Assembly (NCBI RefSeq): GCF_017357865.1
Contig: NZ_CP060096.1
Span: 496,001 to 560,000 of the forward strand
DNA from: Aceticella autotrophica
GTDB taxonomy: Bacteria > Bacillota > Thermoanaerobacteria > Thermoanaerobacterales > Thermoanaerobacteraceae
Length of the DNA: 64,000 bases
Direction: 5' to 3'
Below the pieces are notes generated by a model that was given only the letters and a program-made list of their open reading frames with translations, searched no databases and was not told where the DNA came from. The position numbers were made by a program, and so were the translations under genes. Numbering within the stretch: position 1 is the first letter of the stretch; the number at the start of each line of letters is the position of its first letter. Shown piece after piece: positions 22,995-29,362 of the stretch.

Positions 22995-23921
22995 ATGGAG
23001 GAAATGTATGTTTTTGGTCCGGTACCTTCAAGGAGGCTTGGTATATCATTAGGGTTGGATATTATCCCATATAAGACATGCAATCAAGACTGCCTGTATT
23101 GTCAACTGGGCAGGACGACCGTTAAAACAAATGAAAGAAGAACTTATGTAAGTGTATCTGATTTATTAAATGAGCTGAAAAGTGTTCTATCAAAAAACGA
23201 TAGTATAGACTATATAACATTTGCAGGCTCAGGAGAACCTACATTAAATTCCGATCTTGGGAAGATAATAAAGAAAATAAAGGAAATAAGCTCCATACCC
23301 GTTGCGGTAATTACTAACAGTCTTAAAATGACAGATGAAGACGTACGTAAAGAATTATCCGCGGCAGATTTGATAGTACCTTCTCTTGATAGTGCTGTTC
23401 AGGATACCTTCGAGAGATTAAACAGACCCTGCGAAAATATAAAAATACGTGATGTTATAGATTCTCTGGTAAAATTCAGGCAAAATTTTTCCACTACGAT
23501 GTGGTTAGAAGTGATGCTTATAAAGGGAATCAATAATGATAAGGAAAATATAGAAAATTTAAGGTCAGCAATAGAAGAGATTAAGCCTGACGAAGTTCAA
23601 TTAAATACAGCAGTAAGACCTTCAAATTCTGGAGAAGCAAAGCCTTTAAATATGGAGGAGCTTCAAGATATTGCAGGTTATTTAGGAAGAAGTTGCAGAG
23701 TCATAGCTTCTTTTGACAGAAAATCAAACAAAGTTTATAATTTAAATATAGAAGATGAGGTACTGTCATTATTAAAAAGAAGACCCTGTACCTTAAAAGA
23801 AATGTCGGAGGTATTATCTATACATCCTAATGAATTGTCAAAATATCTTGGAGCTTTGGAAAAGGATGGGAAAGTCAAGGAAAGGGTATTTAATTCAGAA
23901 AAATTTTTTCAATCGTGTTAA
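22995..23921 (+). CDS. Radical SAM protein (COG0731-type)
   Basis: A 308-residue radical SAM enzyme with the [4Fe-4S] cysteines Cys29, Cys33 and Cys36 in CNQDCLYCQ, the N-terminal VFGPVPSRRLGISLGLD typical of the COG0731 group, and the SAM-binding ITFAGSGEPTLN. The last 70 residues (LSLLKRRPCTLKEMSEVLSI...) look like a winged helix. COG0731 members include wyosine-synthesis relatives, but many bacterial copies have no known substrate, and I do not assign one. The ATG at 22995 has AAAGAGAG upstream; an ATG at 23004 is possible. Confidence 0.8.
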   Translation: MEEMYVFGPVPSRRLGISLGLDIIPYKTCNQDCLYCQLGRTTVKTNERRTYVSVSDLLNELKSVLSKNDSIDYITFAGSGEPTLNSDLGKIIKKIKEISSIPVAVITNSLKMTDEDVRKELSAADLIVPSLDSAVQDTFERLNRPCENIKIRDVIDSLVKFRQNFSTTMWLEVMLIKGINNDKENIENLRSAIEEIKPDEVQLNTAVRPSNSGEAKPLNMEELQDIAGYLGRSCRVIASFDRKSNKVYNLNIEDEVLSLLKRRPCTLKEMSEVLSIHPNELSKYLGALEKDGKVKERVFNSEKFFQSC

Positions 23922-24041
23922 GCCTTAAATCTGCATTGAAGAAAGGTATTAATTGTAAACATTATCAGAAAAACTTATAAATTATTTATAAAAACAGTTT
24001 CTTTTTTGTTAAATAATGATAAAATAAAAATAGAGAATTAT

Positions 24042-24069
24042 TTGCTTAAAAAATATTTTGTGTTATAAT
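24042..24069 (+). promoter_or_regulatory. Probable original tig promoter, now 2.1 kb from its gene
   Basis: TTGCTT, 16 bases, then an extended TGTTATAAT. It lies 38 bases before the IS607 insertion point. Removing the element places it about 45 bases before the tig ATG with AGGAGG between, an ordinary promoter-leader layout. Confidence 0.6.
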
Positions 24070-24172
24070 ATGAAGAAGTATTTTCGTTTAAACATATGAA
24101 TAGGAGGTAAATAACAGCTGCCTTATTTCTGACAAACCTTGACAAAACAAACAAATATAATACAATAAGCTT

Positions 24173-24253
24173 ATGGAATTATTAACTAAAGGTTTCCGGG
24201 AACTGATAACAGAGGTGAAGTTAGTTGAAGAAAAGAAAAAAGAACAGCGGTGA
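24173..24253 (+). pseudogene. tnpA: IS607 tnpA remnant with in-frame internal deletion
   Basis: ATG at 24173 opens MELLTK, identical to the start of the intact TnpA for five residues, then jumps to GFRELITEVK, the intact protein's C-terminal end, and stops at 24253 after 26 codons. The helix-turn-helix and recombinase domain (about 193 codons) are missing, so it cannot transpose itself. The promoter-like TTGACA (24139) with TACAAT (24161) is kept. Confidence 0.85.
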
Positions 24254-24329
24254 AACAAGCTGCACCGTCTGCGTTGAATTTTTTCCGGAGGTTTACCCTA
24301 CCTTCCGCTTAAAAAAGTAGAGCCGCGGG

Positions 24330-25910
24330 ATGGAGGACCCGCTGAACACCGAGATGAGATTGTTTTGCTCTTGTACTCGCTGGGCGTTCAACCGGCTGCA
24401 GGAAGATAAATCACGTGAAGAGCTAAAAAAAGAATGTCAGCAGGTATTTGGCTTGAATTCACGATGCTGTGATGATGCCATACTGAAAGGTAGAGCCATA
24501 ATCGAATCACAAAAAGAGCTTTTAAAAATGGAAATAGAAGAAACAAAAACAAAACTATCCCGCACAGAGAAAAAACTCAGTTGGACAGAAAGAACCTTAA
24601 ATAAAGCTGTTGAAAAGAACGATTCAGAAAAAATCAAAAAATTAAAGCGCACTGTACACGGTCGCAAAGCCAGGGTGAAAAAACTATCTGACAAGCTCGA
24701 TGAGCTAAAGGTTCACCAAGACAACGGCACCATACCGACAGTAGTTTTCGGAGGTCATTCTTTGTGGAAGAAAGTTTGCAAAGGCAGTGTTTCGGCAGAA
24801 GAATGGCATAAGGCACGTCAAGACAGGTTATATTCCCGCGGAGACAAGACCAAAGGCGGCAACCCGAACATCAAGATAAGCGAGCATGACGGAGAATTCT
24901 TCTTATCAGTAACCATTTCTCACCTGTCAGAGCAAAAAGGTACGGATAAAAAAGATAGACCAATAATGACCAGAGCACCCCATGTAGAAGGAAGGCTGTG
25001 GCTGCCGGACAAATACCGTTCAAAGGTGTATGAATTACTTTCATCCGGTGCGCCTTATACGGTAGAACTAATCAAAAGCAAGGATGACAGGTACAGGGCA
25101 CATATCAGTTTCGACTTAACACCACCTGATTTAATAACCAATCCCGACTACGGATATTTAGGCATGGATACCAACCCTGACGGTATAGCACTTGCCAATG
25201 TCAGTTATACCGGTCAGCCAGAACCATGGGCAAAGAATTTTAACGTACCATACCCAAAAGCCCTGCACAAATTTGACGGTGAATTTCAAGTAAAAATACA
25301 TCCGAATGGTTTTCTTTACATCAAGATACCCGAACTATCTTACAGTTGTGGATATCGGCGTACTTACTTAGTCGGTGTGTTAGCCAAGATAGTAGTAGAC
25401 ATTGCTAAAGCCTTGGGTAAACCCATAGCCTTAGAAAAGCTGGACTTCGGGAAAGACCATCTAAATACCAACAAAAAATTCAACCGCATGGCAGCCAATT
25501 TCCCTTTTAGAAAGATAGTTGAAGCTGTCATACGCAGGGCATTCAAGGAAGGTGTAGGCATAAAGCAGGTATGGCCGATACACACATCAACCATAGGCTA
25601 CTGGAAGTACAAAAAGAAGTACGGCATAACTGTCCACCATGCCGCAGCATTGGTGATAGCCCGTCGTGCGATAGGTTTTAAAGAGCGTATTACCAATGAA
25701 TTAAAACAGAAAATCCAAGTCCTTAAAGAAAAGCTGAATCAAAAGGCAAATTCCTTACCTGGGGAAGGAAGAGGGATGACCCGAAAGGTGAAGCAGCTCT
25801 TCAAGAAACTGGACGGAAGGATTCTTAAGTTTAACGGTCTGACTCGTAAACAGGAATCATTTTATTCCGTCTGGCATGACTTGAAGCAGCTTGCTTTATC
25901 AAGTAGGTGA
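24330..25910 (+). CDS. tnpB: IS607-associated TnpB-like protein, copy 1, N-terminally shortened
   Basis: 526 residues from the ATG at 24330, very similar to the copy at 49010. The homologous frame begins upstream at TTG 24225 but meets TAG at 24318-24320 where copy 2 has TGG (Trp), so the first 40 or so residues are lost unless translation restarts. The RuvC-I aspartate is kept in LGMDTNPDG and the RuvC-II glutamate in LEKLDFGK. The RuvC-III position reads HHAAALVIARR with no Asp, and no C-terminal zinc-finger cysteines are present. A central Lys/Glu-rich region is a predicted coiled coil. Known TnpB proteins are RNA-guided nucleases; whether this subgroup cuts DNA is unclear. Confidence 0.8.
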   Translation: MEDPLNTEMRLFCSCTRWAFNRLQEDKSREELKKECQQVFGLNSRCCDDAILKGRAIIESQKELLKMEIEETKTKLSRTEKKLSWTERTLNKAVEKNDSEKIKKLKRTVHGRKARVKKLSDKLDELKVHQDNGTIPTVVFGGHSLWKKVCKGSVSAEEWHKARQDRLYSRGDKTKGGNPNIKISEHDGEFFLSVTISHLSEQKGTDKKDRPIMTRAPHVEGRLWLPDKYRSKVYELLSSGAPYTVELIKSKDDRYRAHISFDLTPPDLITNPDYGYLGMDTNPDGIALANVSYTGQPEPWAKNFNVPYPKALHKFDGEFQVKIHPNGFLYIKIPELSYSCGYRRTYLVGVLAKIVVDIAKALGKPIALEKLDFGKDHLNTNKKFNRMAANFPFRKIVEAVIRRAFKEGVGIKQVWPIHTSTIGYWKYKKKYGITVHHAAALVIARRAIGFKERITNELKQKIQVLKEKLNQKANSLPGEGRGMTRKVKQLFKKLDGRILKFNGLTRKQESFYSVWHDLKQLALSSR

Positions 25911-25914
25911 CCCC

Positions 25915-26170
25915 GTTTAGCCGGAGTACGGGAACAACCGGTAAGTCTAATCTAACAGATTGCGGGAGGCAAAGCAGCAGCTTTCGCTTAACGGTCAACG
26001 CAAGTTGCGCCCGTAAAGCGCCGTTCTCCCGTCCGGGTGGGACTCCCGGGACTAAGGTCTCCCTGTCGCCCCAGAAAAAATTTATCATGGAGGTGTAAAG
26101 CCTGGTCATGGGGAGGCCGGGTTTACAAAAATTAATTATTGTTATGTATTGTAAACTTTTTTGAACCAGG
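25915..26170 (+). ncRNA. Candidate guide-RNA (omega/reRNA) region of IS607 copy 1
   Basis: 256 noncoding bases after tnpB, much more GC-rich than the surroundings and strongly conserved with copy 2. They contain strong stems such as GTCCGGG with CCCGGGAC. In characterised TnpB systems the guide RNA is made from this end and its guide is the flanking DNA, here ATTTACTTAATGGGTAGT over the tig start. The RNA itself is inferred. Confidence 0.45.
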
Positions 26171-26179
26171 ATTTACTTA

Positions 26180-27478
26180 ATGGGTAGTAATCTTAAAAAA
26201 ATAGAAAAAAGTGTAGCAATAATTGAACTTAATATTCCAAAGGAAACATTTGAAAACAGCATGAATTTTGCATACAAGAAAAATGCCGATAAATTTAATA
26301 TTCCCGGTTTTAGGCGCGGCAAAGCACCGATGGCAATTGTAGAAAGGTATTACGGCGAGGGAATACTGTATGAAGATGCTATAGAGCATGCTTTTCCGGT
26401 AGCATATAAGGAAGCGATTGAATCGCTTAAAATAGATCCGGTTGACACTCCGAATATTGATGTCTTACAAATAGGCAAGGGCAAAGACTTGATTATTGAA
26501 GTAAGGGTTCCTGTAATGCCGGAGGTTGAACTTGGAGAATATAAGGATATAGAGGTAGAAAAAATAGAATATGATGTTACAGAAGAAGAAATCATGAACC
26601 GCCTTCAGGAAATGAGACAAAAGAGTGCCAGAATTATTCCGGTAGAAGATAGACCTGCACAAACGGGGGATATTGTAATAATAGATTTTGAAGGATTTAT
26701 TGACGGCGAGCCTTTTGAAAAAGGCAAGGCGGAAAATTACGAACTTGAGCTGGGTTCCAATACGTTTATACCGGGCTTTGAAGAACAGATTGTTGGACAC
26801 AATATAAATGATGAATTTGATGTTGATGTTACTTTCCCTGAAAATTACAGGGTTGACGATTTAAAAAGCAAGCCGGTAGTATTTAAAGTAAAATTAAAAG
26901 CCATAAAACAAAAAGAACTTCCCGATTTAAGTGATGACTTTGCAAAAGATGTAAGCGAACATGATACACTTGATGAGCTAAAGGAGTCAATAAAAAAGGA
27001 AATTCAGGAAGAGAAAAGACATTATGCAGAGGAAGAAATGAAAGAAAATGCTGCCAAGAAGGTAGTACAGAATTCAAAGGTTGAAATTCCCGACGTAATG
27101 ATTGAGAGGCAAATAGATATATCATTGAAAGAACTTGATTACAATTTAAGATATCAAGGGTTATATCTTGATAAGTACCTTGAAATTACAGGCAAAAGCA
27201 AAGATGATTTAAGAGCCGAAATGAGAAATGCTGCTGAATCAAGGGTTAAGATGCAGTTGGTAATAGATAAGATAGGCAAATTAGAAAATATAGAAGCAAC
27301 AGATGAAGAAATTGAGGAAAAGATTGCTGAAATTGCAAAAGAATACAACATAACAGCGGAAAAATTAAAAGAAGAGCTTAATGAAAACCAAATAAACAAT
27401 ATTAAAGATGATATAATATATTTTAAGACAATTGACTTTATTTTTAACAATAGTAAAATAGTAAATAAAGAGGAGTGA
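26180..27478 (+). CDS. tig: Trigger factor
   Basis: The ribosome-bound chaperone and peptidyl-prolyl isomerase, 432 residues. It has the ribosome-binding N-domain (signature FRRGKAP, with the preceding GF, about residue 38), an FKBP-type isomerase domain (about 155-240, [20 protein letters not shown]) and a helical C-domain. The ATG at 26180 is the only sensible start. Its natural ribosome-binding site, AGGAGG 9 bases before the ATG, has been split off by IS607 copy 1, leaving ACCAGG from the element's right end. It is first in the tig-clpP-clpX-lon operon. Confidence 0.95.
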
Positions 27479-27482
27479 TGTT

Positions 27483-28067
27483 ATGAGTTTAGTACCTATC
27501 GTTGTTGAACAAACCAATAGAGGCGAGCGTTCATACGATATATTTTCGAGACTTTTAAAAGACAGGATAATTTTCCTTGGAGATGAAATCAATGATGTAA
27601 CTGCAAGCTTAGTGGTTGCACAGATGCTTTTTCTTGAAGCGGAGGATCCTGATAAAGATATATGGATTTATATAAATAGTCCAGGAGGTTCCATAACGGC
27701 AGGTTTTGCCATATATGATACAATGCAGTACATCAAACCGGATGTTGTAACAATGTGCGTTGGAATGGCTGCATCAATGGCTGCATTTTTGCTTGCTGCC
27801 GGTGCAAAAGGGAAGAGATTTGCGCTTCCAAACAGCGAAATAATGATACATCAGCCCCTGGGGGGAACACAAGGTCAAGCCACAGACATAAAGATACATG
27901 CGGAACGAATTATTAAGACAAGAGAAAAATTAAATAGAATTTTAGCTGAAAGAACAGGGCAGCCTCTGGAAAAAATCCAAATAGATACAGAAAGAGATTT
28001 CTTTATGGATCCGGAAGAGGCAAAAGCATACGGAATTATTGACGATATTCTATTAAAAAGAAAGTAA
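27483..28067 (+). CDS. clpP: ClpP protease subunit
   Basis: Serine protease of the ClpXP complex, 194 residues, forming a tetradecameric barrel. The triad is Ser98 (GMAASMAA), His123 (MIHQPLGG) and Asp172. It starts 4 bases after tig with AGAGGAGTG upstream and is followed by clpX, its ATPase partner. Confidence 0.98.
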
Positions 28068-28087: not shown

Positions 28088-29362
28088 ATGGCAAAATATG
28101 ATAATCAAAAGCAATTAAAATGTTCATTTTGTGGTAAATCACAGGATCAGGTAAAAAGACTTGTTGCAGGTCCTGGAGTGTATATATGTGATGAATGTAT
28201 AGAACTCTGTCAGGAGATTATTGATGAGGAATTTGAAGAAAACATTGATATTGAAATTGGAGAACTTCCAAAACCAAAAGAAATAAAAGATTTTCTTGAT
28301 CAATATGTAATAGGACAGGATAATGCCAAAAAAGCACTCTCAGTTGCTGTTTATAGTCACTACAAAAGGATAAATAGCAGAGTCAAATCAGATGATGTTG
28401 AGTTACAAAAAAGCAATATTCTTATGCTGGGACCTACAGGATCAGGCAAGACATTACTTGCACAGACCCTGGCAAAGATGCTTAATGTACCTTTTGCAAT
28501 CGCTGATGCAACATCACTTACAGAGGCAGGTTATGTGGGTGAGGATGTTGAAAACATTCTTTTAAAGTTGATTCAGGCAGCAGACTATGATGTAGAAAAA
28601 GCAGAAAAAGGTATTGTATATATCGACGAGGTTGATAAAATAGCAAGAAAATCAGAAAATCCTTCAATTACAAGGGATGTATCCGGTGAAGGAGTTCAAC
28701 AGGCATTATTAAAAATACTTGAGGGAACAGTAGCAAATGTTCCCCCGCAGGGTGGAAGGAAGCATCCGCATCAAGAGTTTATACAGATTGACACCACAAA
28801 TATTTTATTTATTGTCGGTGGTGCATTTGACGGAATTGAAAAGATAATAGAATCAAGAACCGGCAAAAAAACGTTGGGATTTGGTTCTGAAATAGTAAGC
28901 AAGCAAGAAAAGAAAATAGGGGAAATATTAAAAAATATTATGCCAGAAGACCTTCTTAAATTCGGTCTTATTCCCGAATTTATCGGAAGGCTGCCGGTCG
29001 TTGTTACATTAGATTCTCTTGATAAGGAATCACTCGTACGTATTTTGACAGAACCTAAAAATGCTCTTACAAAACAGTATGAGAAATTATTCGAGCTTGA
29101 CGGTGTTAAGCTTGAATTTGATAAAAAGGCTCTCAATGTAATTGCACAAAAAGCTATCGAGAGAAAAACGGGTGCACGTGGTTTAAGGTCAATTCTTGAA
29201 GAGCTGATGCTGGATGTTATGTATGAAATACCATCAAGCGAAAATATTGAAAAATGCATAATTACAGAAGAAACGGTACTGCACAATGCACAGCCGACAT
29301 TAGTATATTCAGATGTGCAGAAAACTAAAAAGAGGATAAAAAAATCGGAATCTGTATCATGA
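28088..29362 (+). CDS. clpX: ClpX ATPase subunit
   Basis: Unfoldase of ClpXP, 424 residues. The N-terminal zinc domain has Cys12, Cys15, Cys34 and Cys37. The AAA+ module has Walker A GPTGSGKT, the pore-loop segment [14 protein letters not shown], Walker [12 protein letters not shown], and the sensor-2 arginine region GARGLRSI. The IGF loop that docks on ClpP appears as LGFGSE. It lies 20 bases after clpP with CGAAAGAGGTG upstream. Confidence 0.97.

Follow-up and report, generated by a model that had tools for sequence, protein, structure and literature searches.

Transposition by IS607 of Helicobacter pylori is described, in the available portion of PMC6188088, as the work of TnpA, a serine recombinase with a MerR-like N-terminal domain, which recombines at GG, leaves no target duplication and prefers a (G)GG target without further sequence relationship. 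A second protein of such elements, TnpB, works with an RNA scaffold to which the fixed nucleotide flanking the right end belongs (accessible part of PMC10711439). The RAGATH-18 IS607 group (ISFba1 group) combines IS607 organisation with TnpB and a downstream structured RNA; for 22 strains, the available part of PMC11061315 gives the transposon-adjacent motif (TAM) as AGGAG (18 strains) or GAGGG (4 strains). Here, we analyzed a 64,000-nucleotide stretch of the Aceticella autotrophica genome (NZ_CP060096.1, positions 496,001 to 560,000, forward strand), hereafter the window, in which an IS607-family element occupies the Shine-Dalgarno (SD) sequence of tig, the gene for trigger factor. This element resembles H. 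pylori IS607 in its type of recombinase, its GG crossover and the lack of target duplication, but its probable target is GGAGG. With RAGATH-18 elements it shares the organisation, the TnpB and RNA genes and, as found here, junctions at SD sites, whereas its RNA is of another type.

An IS607-family element in the Shine-Dalgarno sequence of tig

The original prediction placed the element exactly in the tig SD sequence, and its boundaries (24108-26170) were confirmed: AGGAGG (24102-24107) lies directly to the left, and the right end is followed by ATTTACTTA (26171-26179) and the tig ATG at 26180. The empty site predicted for relatives, AGGAGG-ATTTACTTA-ATG, was also found. In 16 of 19 family relatives the tig ATG is preceded, at a distance of 9 nt, by AGGAGG (15) or GGGAGG (1); locus L033 has AGGAGG with a 10-nt spacer, and the script resolved no site in the other two (L020 and L027). 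Genome G009 matches the window at every one of the 23 nt preceding the junction. Among the copies in this genome, the empty-site test covers tig only. Comparison of occupied and empty alleles places the crossover at the dinucleotide GG, with no target duplication.

Recurrence of the insertion site

The genome (2.27 Mb, one contig) contains nine copies of the element, the other eight being 87-90% identical to that in the window. AGGAGG is directly left of all nine, and an in-frame start codon (seven ATG, one TTG, one GTG) lies 6-9 nt to the right of each. AGGAGG occurs 1317 times genome-wide; 534 of these sites have a start-codon triplet at 6-9 nt, and the reversed pattern occurs 180 times. Against this background of 0.405, nine of nine gives a p value of about 3e-4 on its own. 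Since the arrangement at tig is common to all nine copies, chance is ruled out as its cause.

Related elements, with TnpB proteins 32-34% identical, show the same arrangement in Thermoanaerobacter and Caldanaerobacter genomes. A genome scan added close kin of the window element in Desulfofundulus, Desulfovirgula and Desulfotomaculum and elements of the related type in Fervidicola, Caldicoprobacter, Thermovorax, Ammonifex, Sulfurihydrogenibium, Aquificaceae and Caldisericum; no relative was found in viral contigs. The 125 loci were reduced to 80 distinct right junctions by dropping 18 right-flank duplicates and 27 loci without a usable right end (among the latter, L108, L144, L153, L180 and L185 were removed by hand as unreliable). 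With gene starts called mechanically, a start codon and open frame were present 4-10 nt downstream at 65 of the 80 junctions (18/19 of the window type and 47/61 of the related type). By the same rule, background RGGAGG sites scored 12/43 in the window, 114/370 in genomes G014 and G006 together and 125/747 in the fetched contigs; a recount with fuller flanks gave 13/40 in the window, 50/172 in G014 and 57/180 in G006. Compared with a background of 0.31, the 65/80 has a binomial p value of 2e-20. Thus, an insertion that the original prediction had regarded as a rare case is at the usual position of this element group, as both 9/9 and 65/80 indicate. On the left side, GGAGG was present within 7 nt at 62 of 70 junctions, compared with 0.5% of random 7-mers, with the left register set in favor of RGGAGG within a 4-nt range.

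Empty alleles and the nature of the target

For ten insertions, the two flanks were joined and used as queries against 20 family genomes, and 30 loci were fetched. Five sites, L079, L089, L092, L097 and L111, yielded empty alleles that span the junction, all of them with GGAGG there; identity is 96-99% for the best alleles and 81% for the weakest. For the L083 site, the alleles are 75-81% identical and nine of ten have GGAGG with a slightly different spacer. L078, L080, L084 and L087 had no junction-spanning allele among the 30 loci. The occupied left flanks of L092 and L097 read GAAGG and AAGAGG, respectively; since GGAGG stands at this position in their close empty alleles, later mutation of the left flank best accounts for the two exceptions.

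Separately, the right flank of L092 is the same as that of L096 (99/100) and the left is unlike (29/100), a pattern that recombination between copies or a rearrangement of the site could have produced. At the L087 site in the sister genomes G010, G012, G016 and G019, the flanks are about 1.05 kb apart, so that a shorter insert, perhaps a deletion derivative, appears to be present.

Some insertions are shared by sister species: that of L093 and L095 is 98.5% identical over nearly 4 kb with both flanks alike, and that of L090 and L115 matches at 100/100 positions on both sides. Such insertions, with their loss of the SD sequence, can therefore persist.

Exact junctions, empty sites, a recurrent motif and a recurrent downstream start codon are what we observe, and they are very probably explained by an IS607-family TnpB element for which (A/G)GGAGG, that is, the SD sequence, serves as target and TAM, with selection removing insertions in coding sequences. 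The serine recombinase would join the element to its target at GG, so that AGGAGG stays on the left and the element's right end places ...ACCAGG in front of the host gene. Recombination at GG (PMC6188088, as far as available) and a fixed flanking nucleotide belonging to the scaffold (PMC10711439, likewise), together with a GGAGG target, give junctions as seen here. GGAGG would be both the target of the recombinase and the TAM by which TnpB and its right-end RNA recognize the empty site. The guide would consist of the first bases of the right flank, at tig the spacer and start codon, and insertions in coding sequences would mostly be lost by selection, those in SD sequences remaining.

We considered whether the element instead targets GG almost anywhere, (A)GGAGG being its own left end and the nearby start codons coincidental. 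The (G)GG preference of H. pylori IS607 fits this idea. However, empty alleles of relatives already have GGAGG followed directly by the right flank, those of L092 and L097 have a GGAGG that the occupied flanks lack, and correctly spaced start codons are far above background. This explanation is extremely unlikely, and GGAGG as a part of the element was rejected because the empty alleles of tig, L079, L089, L092, L097 and L111 carry it.

A further possibility is that GGAGG is the target without any preference for SD sequences, and that selection alone purges coding insertions. This is compatible with the explanation that we favor, the sole difference being where the bias comes from, and we consider it more likely than not. 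Among insertions in low-GC genomes, 5 of 40 are crossed by an open reading frame (ORF) and none of the five lacks a downstream start codon, compared with background sites of which 195 of 392 are crossed by an ORF, 177 of them without a start codon; purging predicts such a difference, which nevertheless fits both readings. Also in favor of purging alone, a start codon is missing at some higher-GC junctions (L130, L149, L170 and L192). The standing insertions fit preference and survivorship alike, and the two are not separable from them.

This last point weighs against SD targeting, as do several others, including the favored left register mentioned above. Background RGGAGG sites are themselves SD-like in 17-33% of cases by the same rule. 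GGAGG is absent from 8 of the 70 left junctions, and its former presence could be demonstrated for just L092 and L097; of the ten relatives aligned at the L083 site, one (L254) has no GGAGG at the junction. Fifteen of the 80 right junctions fail the start-codon rule, L086, L107 and L170 being plainly without a start. In five of the eight low-GC failures an ATG does follow, at a distance of 2-11 nt: it opens a short or broken frame in L088, L090, L099 and L112, and in L101 a long one (288 aa), though with a spacing of only 2 nt. An ORF of at least 120 codons crosses 12 of the 70 two-ended junctions; at L189 it extends for 200 codons on each side, and at L192 it is on the other strand and no start codon is present. 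Another of the twelve, the A. autotrophica copy L009, interrupts an rpn/YhgA-like gene (PF04754 on the upstream side, DUF4351 on the downstream side), albeit at an AGGAGG-N8-ATG inside that gene. In addition, cleavage by TnpB is putative for this element, as the RuvC-III Asp is replaced by His and the TAM is presumed from sequence.

As a side observation on L009 (1-516 and 3210-3508; C1:543800-547500), the internal AGGAGG-N8-ATG may start a gene within a gene.

Predicted consequences for translation of tig

In the genes behind these insertions every codon is kept and, judged from the sequence, the ribosome landing signal is gone. At tig, the ORF is intact (432 aa with Trigger_N, FKBP_C and Trigger_C domains), in agreement with the claim that all codons are spared, and the right end of the element provides ...ACCAGG in place of AGGAGG. 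The predicted loss of the SD sequence was borne out by pairing energies, calculated with an assumed 12-nt anti-SD sequence rather than one taken from this genome: -11.8 kcal/mol before and -4.7 kcal/mol after insertion at tig, and on average -11.8 and -5.3, respectively, over 22 chosen junctions. The clpP gene starts 4 nt downstream of the tig stop codon and is followed by the clpX ORF, as had been proposed; both retain SD-like pairing (-9.5 and -13.0).

A promoter had been suggested 38 bases before the insertion. A TATAAT with an upstream TG (extended -10) does lie at 24064-24069, ending 38 nt before the junction, and a similar TATAAT is found upstream of tig in relatives; however, its -35 (TTGCTT) is a poor match, and the candidate is not among the sites listed by a consensus promoter scan. 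The element runs in the same direction as tig. It has a promoter-like site in its left end, and no terminator-like site was found on the plus strand between 23900 and 26300, so that tig is within reach of read-through, which is plausible as originally argued. Transcription of tig would then start at the original promoter or at that in the left end, read through the element and yield an mRNA with a weak initiation site; guide-RNA maturation and tig translation might compete for one stretch of this mRNA. With weaker predicted pairing at tig, supply by read-through and pairing kept at clpP and clpX, a lower level of Tig relative to ClpXP, i.e., a shift in the chaperone:protease balance, is plausible on these predictions.

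Such a shift could in principle be an adaptive regulatory switch between Tig and ClpXP, perhaps reversible by excision, and the intact tig frame and the pairing kept at clpP and clpX would suit it. Against it, the window copy has no tnpA and its tnpB is damaged at the 5' end. Moreover, equal insertions precede unrelated genes (MctB-like, CbiZ, NurA, SpoVAC/AEB, PRC-barrel, HIT and SPFH), and thus nothing singles out tig. We regard a switch as very unlikely. Two unlike elements were found in the SD sequences of MctB-like genes in two genera (L010, with a Pfam MctB match, and L083, with a similar sequence).

Group I introns are known from IStrons of the IS607 type, and if the element were spliced from the mRNA in this manner, AGGAGG-ATG would be restored at a seamless junction. 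In Rfam searches of 23900-26400 at E values up to 5, however, only three chance-level matches were obtained (E 0.36-3.2), none of them an intron, and seven related loci had no match at gathering score. With no intron match, the IStron was rejected as a candidate and is almost certainly not the explanation.

RAGATH-18 IS607 elements

Six phage IS607 records were examined, and five had a RAGATH-18 RNA, which led us to this group. A search of 299 genomes of the phylum with RF03064 gave matches in 13, in 12 of them over the cut-off. Of 34 RAGATH-18 junctions, 22 are followed within 4-11 nt by a start codon with its frame; AGGAG sites elsewhere in these right flanks pass in 20 of 98 cases (p 3e-8). 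Of the 35 elements examined, L260 (no right end) was dropped and its second RNA match omitted; duplicates were kept, L275 was counted although below the Rfam cut-off, L274, with a miscalled right end, was entered as a miss, and six further RF03064 hits lay outside the count. A pattern made from a published k-turn oligonucleotide matched unrelated phage stretches and was discarded. RF03064 matched neither the window element nor seven related loci nor any other part of the A. autotrophica genome, which places the element outside the RAGATH-18 group.

The AGGAG TAM of RAGATH-18 elements is already known (PMC11061315, in its available part); what the present counts add is a link between IS607/TnpB elements and SD sites. 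The terms "ribosom" and "start codon" do not occur in the main text of PMC11061315, to the extent that it was available, and in PMC6188088 and PMC13418256 such terms occur in other senses. A literature search, which covered few subscription papers, found none linking IS607/TnpB targeting to SD sequences, ribosome-binding sites or start codons.

It may be, with about an even chance, that IS607/TnpB elements form a broad guild of three or more element types, differing in their guide RNAs, that use the SD sequence as target and TAM. Their guides would read start-codon regions, conserved translation starts would be homing sites for persistence and spread, and host genes would be translated from a weakened start context supplied by the element. 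If SD targeting is correct, a group of mobile elements has become fixed on a short gene-start motif, sparing codons while altering translation. It could then be tested how genes survive the loss of their SD sequence, whether damage to the host shapes the choice of TAM and whether translation of the host gene has to compete with guide maturation for a single transcript. The insertions would also mark gene starts in these genomes whose expression is likely altered though the genes look intact.

Structure of the element

Features of the locus are listed in Table 1. The left end is 84-85% identical to those of seven other copies. A tnpA-like ORF (~220 aa) is present in seven copies and absent from the window copy and L010. 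The TnpA of L009 is an IS607 serine recombinase (NF033518, E 1e-57; Resolvase and MerR domains), which assigns the elements to the IS607 family. Without tnpA and with a 5'-damaged tnpB, the window copy probably no longer moves by itself.

Table 1. Positions of the element, its parts and neighboring features in the window
Feature	Position	Strand	Basis and remarks
Tig promoter candidate	24042..24069	+	TTGCTT, 16 nt, TGtTATAAT; now ~2.1 kb from tig
AGGAGG, original tig SD sequence, insertion target and presumed TAM	24102..24107	+	Sequence, own copies, relatives
IS607-family element, copy without tnpA, one of nine in the genome	24108..26170	+	Genome comparison
Left end (TAAATAACAGCTGCC...) with promoter-like TTGACA-16-TACAAT at 24139-24166	24108..24188	+	Identity to other copies and promoter scan
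tnpB	24225..25910	+	TTG start (ATG in L009 and L010); in-frame TAG at 24318-24320; resumes at ATG 24330 (526 aa)
Conserved structured RNA, presumed right-end RNA (reRNA/omegaRNA) scaffold, extending into right end GAACCAGG	25899..26170	+	Alignment A3, 13 copies
Presumed reRNA guide (tig spacer and start codon)	26171..26190	+	Inferred from IS607 TnpB biology (PMC11061315 and PMC10711439, available parts) and position
tig, trigger factor, 432 aa, intact	26180..27478	+	ORF and domain search
clpP	27483..28067	+	ORF and domain search
clpX	28088..29362	+	Assigned from ORF and sequence alone

The large ORF encodes a divergent TnpB. Its similarity to TnpB/Cas12f-type nucleases (NF040570) is below threshold (50.7 bits for the window copy and 54.6 for L009, cut-off 100). 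TIGR01766 scored 32.4 with L009, just above its cut-off of 32, and 27.3, below it, with the window copy. An N-terminal match to the T. tengcongensis-type transposase (TIGR01765) is likewise below the curated cut-off of 47.25 (window 35.7 bits, L009 41.9). The window TnpB had no Pfam match at 0.001; for a TnpB of the related type (L078), on which Pfam alone was run, the TNB domain scored 18.3 against a cut-off of 26.3. A PDB profile search returned a single weak match, Cas12f1 (9i8y, E 7.5e-5), and the structure model had a mean predicted local distance difference test score of 54.6, too low for use.

Window-type TnpB has the RuvC-I Asp and RuvC-II Glu motifs of these nucleases but not the complete D-E-D triad, and differs also in having no zinc-ribbon cysteines in the motif region. 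His occupies the RuvC-III position in 12 window-type sequences and in a decayed relative in G009, the motif search having returned nothing for the other window-type loci; all 68 related-type sequences with the motif, duplicates included, have Asp there. The His-type clade consists of L009-L017, L117, L132, L134 and L138, with the motif His-His-Ala-Ala-Ala, or His-Glu in the decayed L117. The ratio of nonsynonymous to synonymous substitution rates was 0.07-0.22 among seven intact tnpB copies, suggesting purifying selection; the His-type protein is thus under selection, which says nothing of DNA cutting.

The right-end RNA ends at the element border, as expected of a TnpB-type element. Its structure over 13 copies comprises 73 pairs, in 19 of which both partners change; no shuffle out of 500 reached this value, and sliding the pairing abolished the signal. 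Part of this contrast is expected because the RNAalifold structure was derived from the same alignment. The window RNA lacks ~35 nt of one arm that is present in L009, L012, L014 and L015. A covarying RNA of a few hundred nucleotides following tnpB, with no Rfam family at gathering score, was also observed in Desulfofundulus, Desulfovirgula and other Clostridia contigs.

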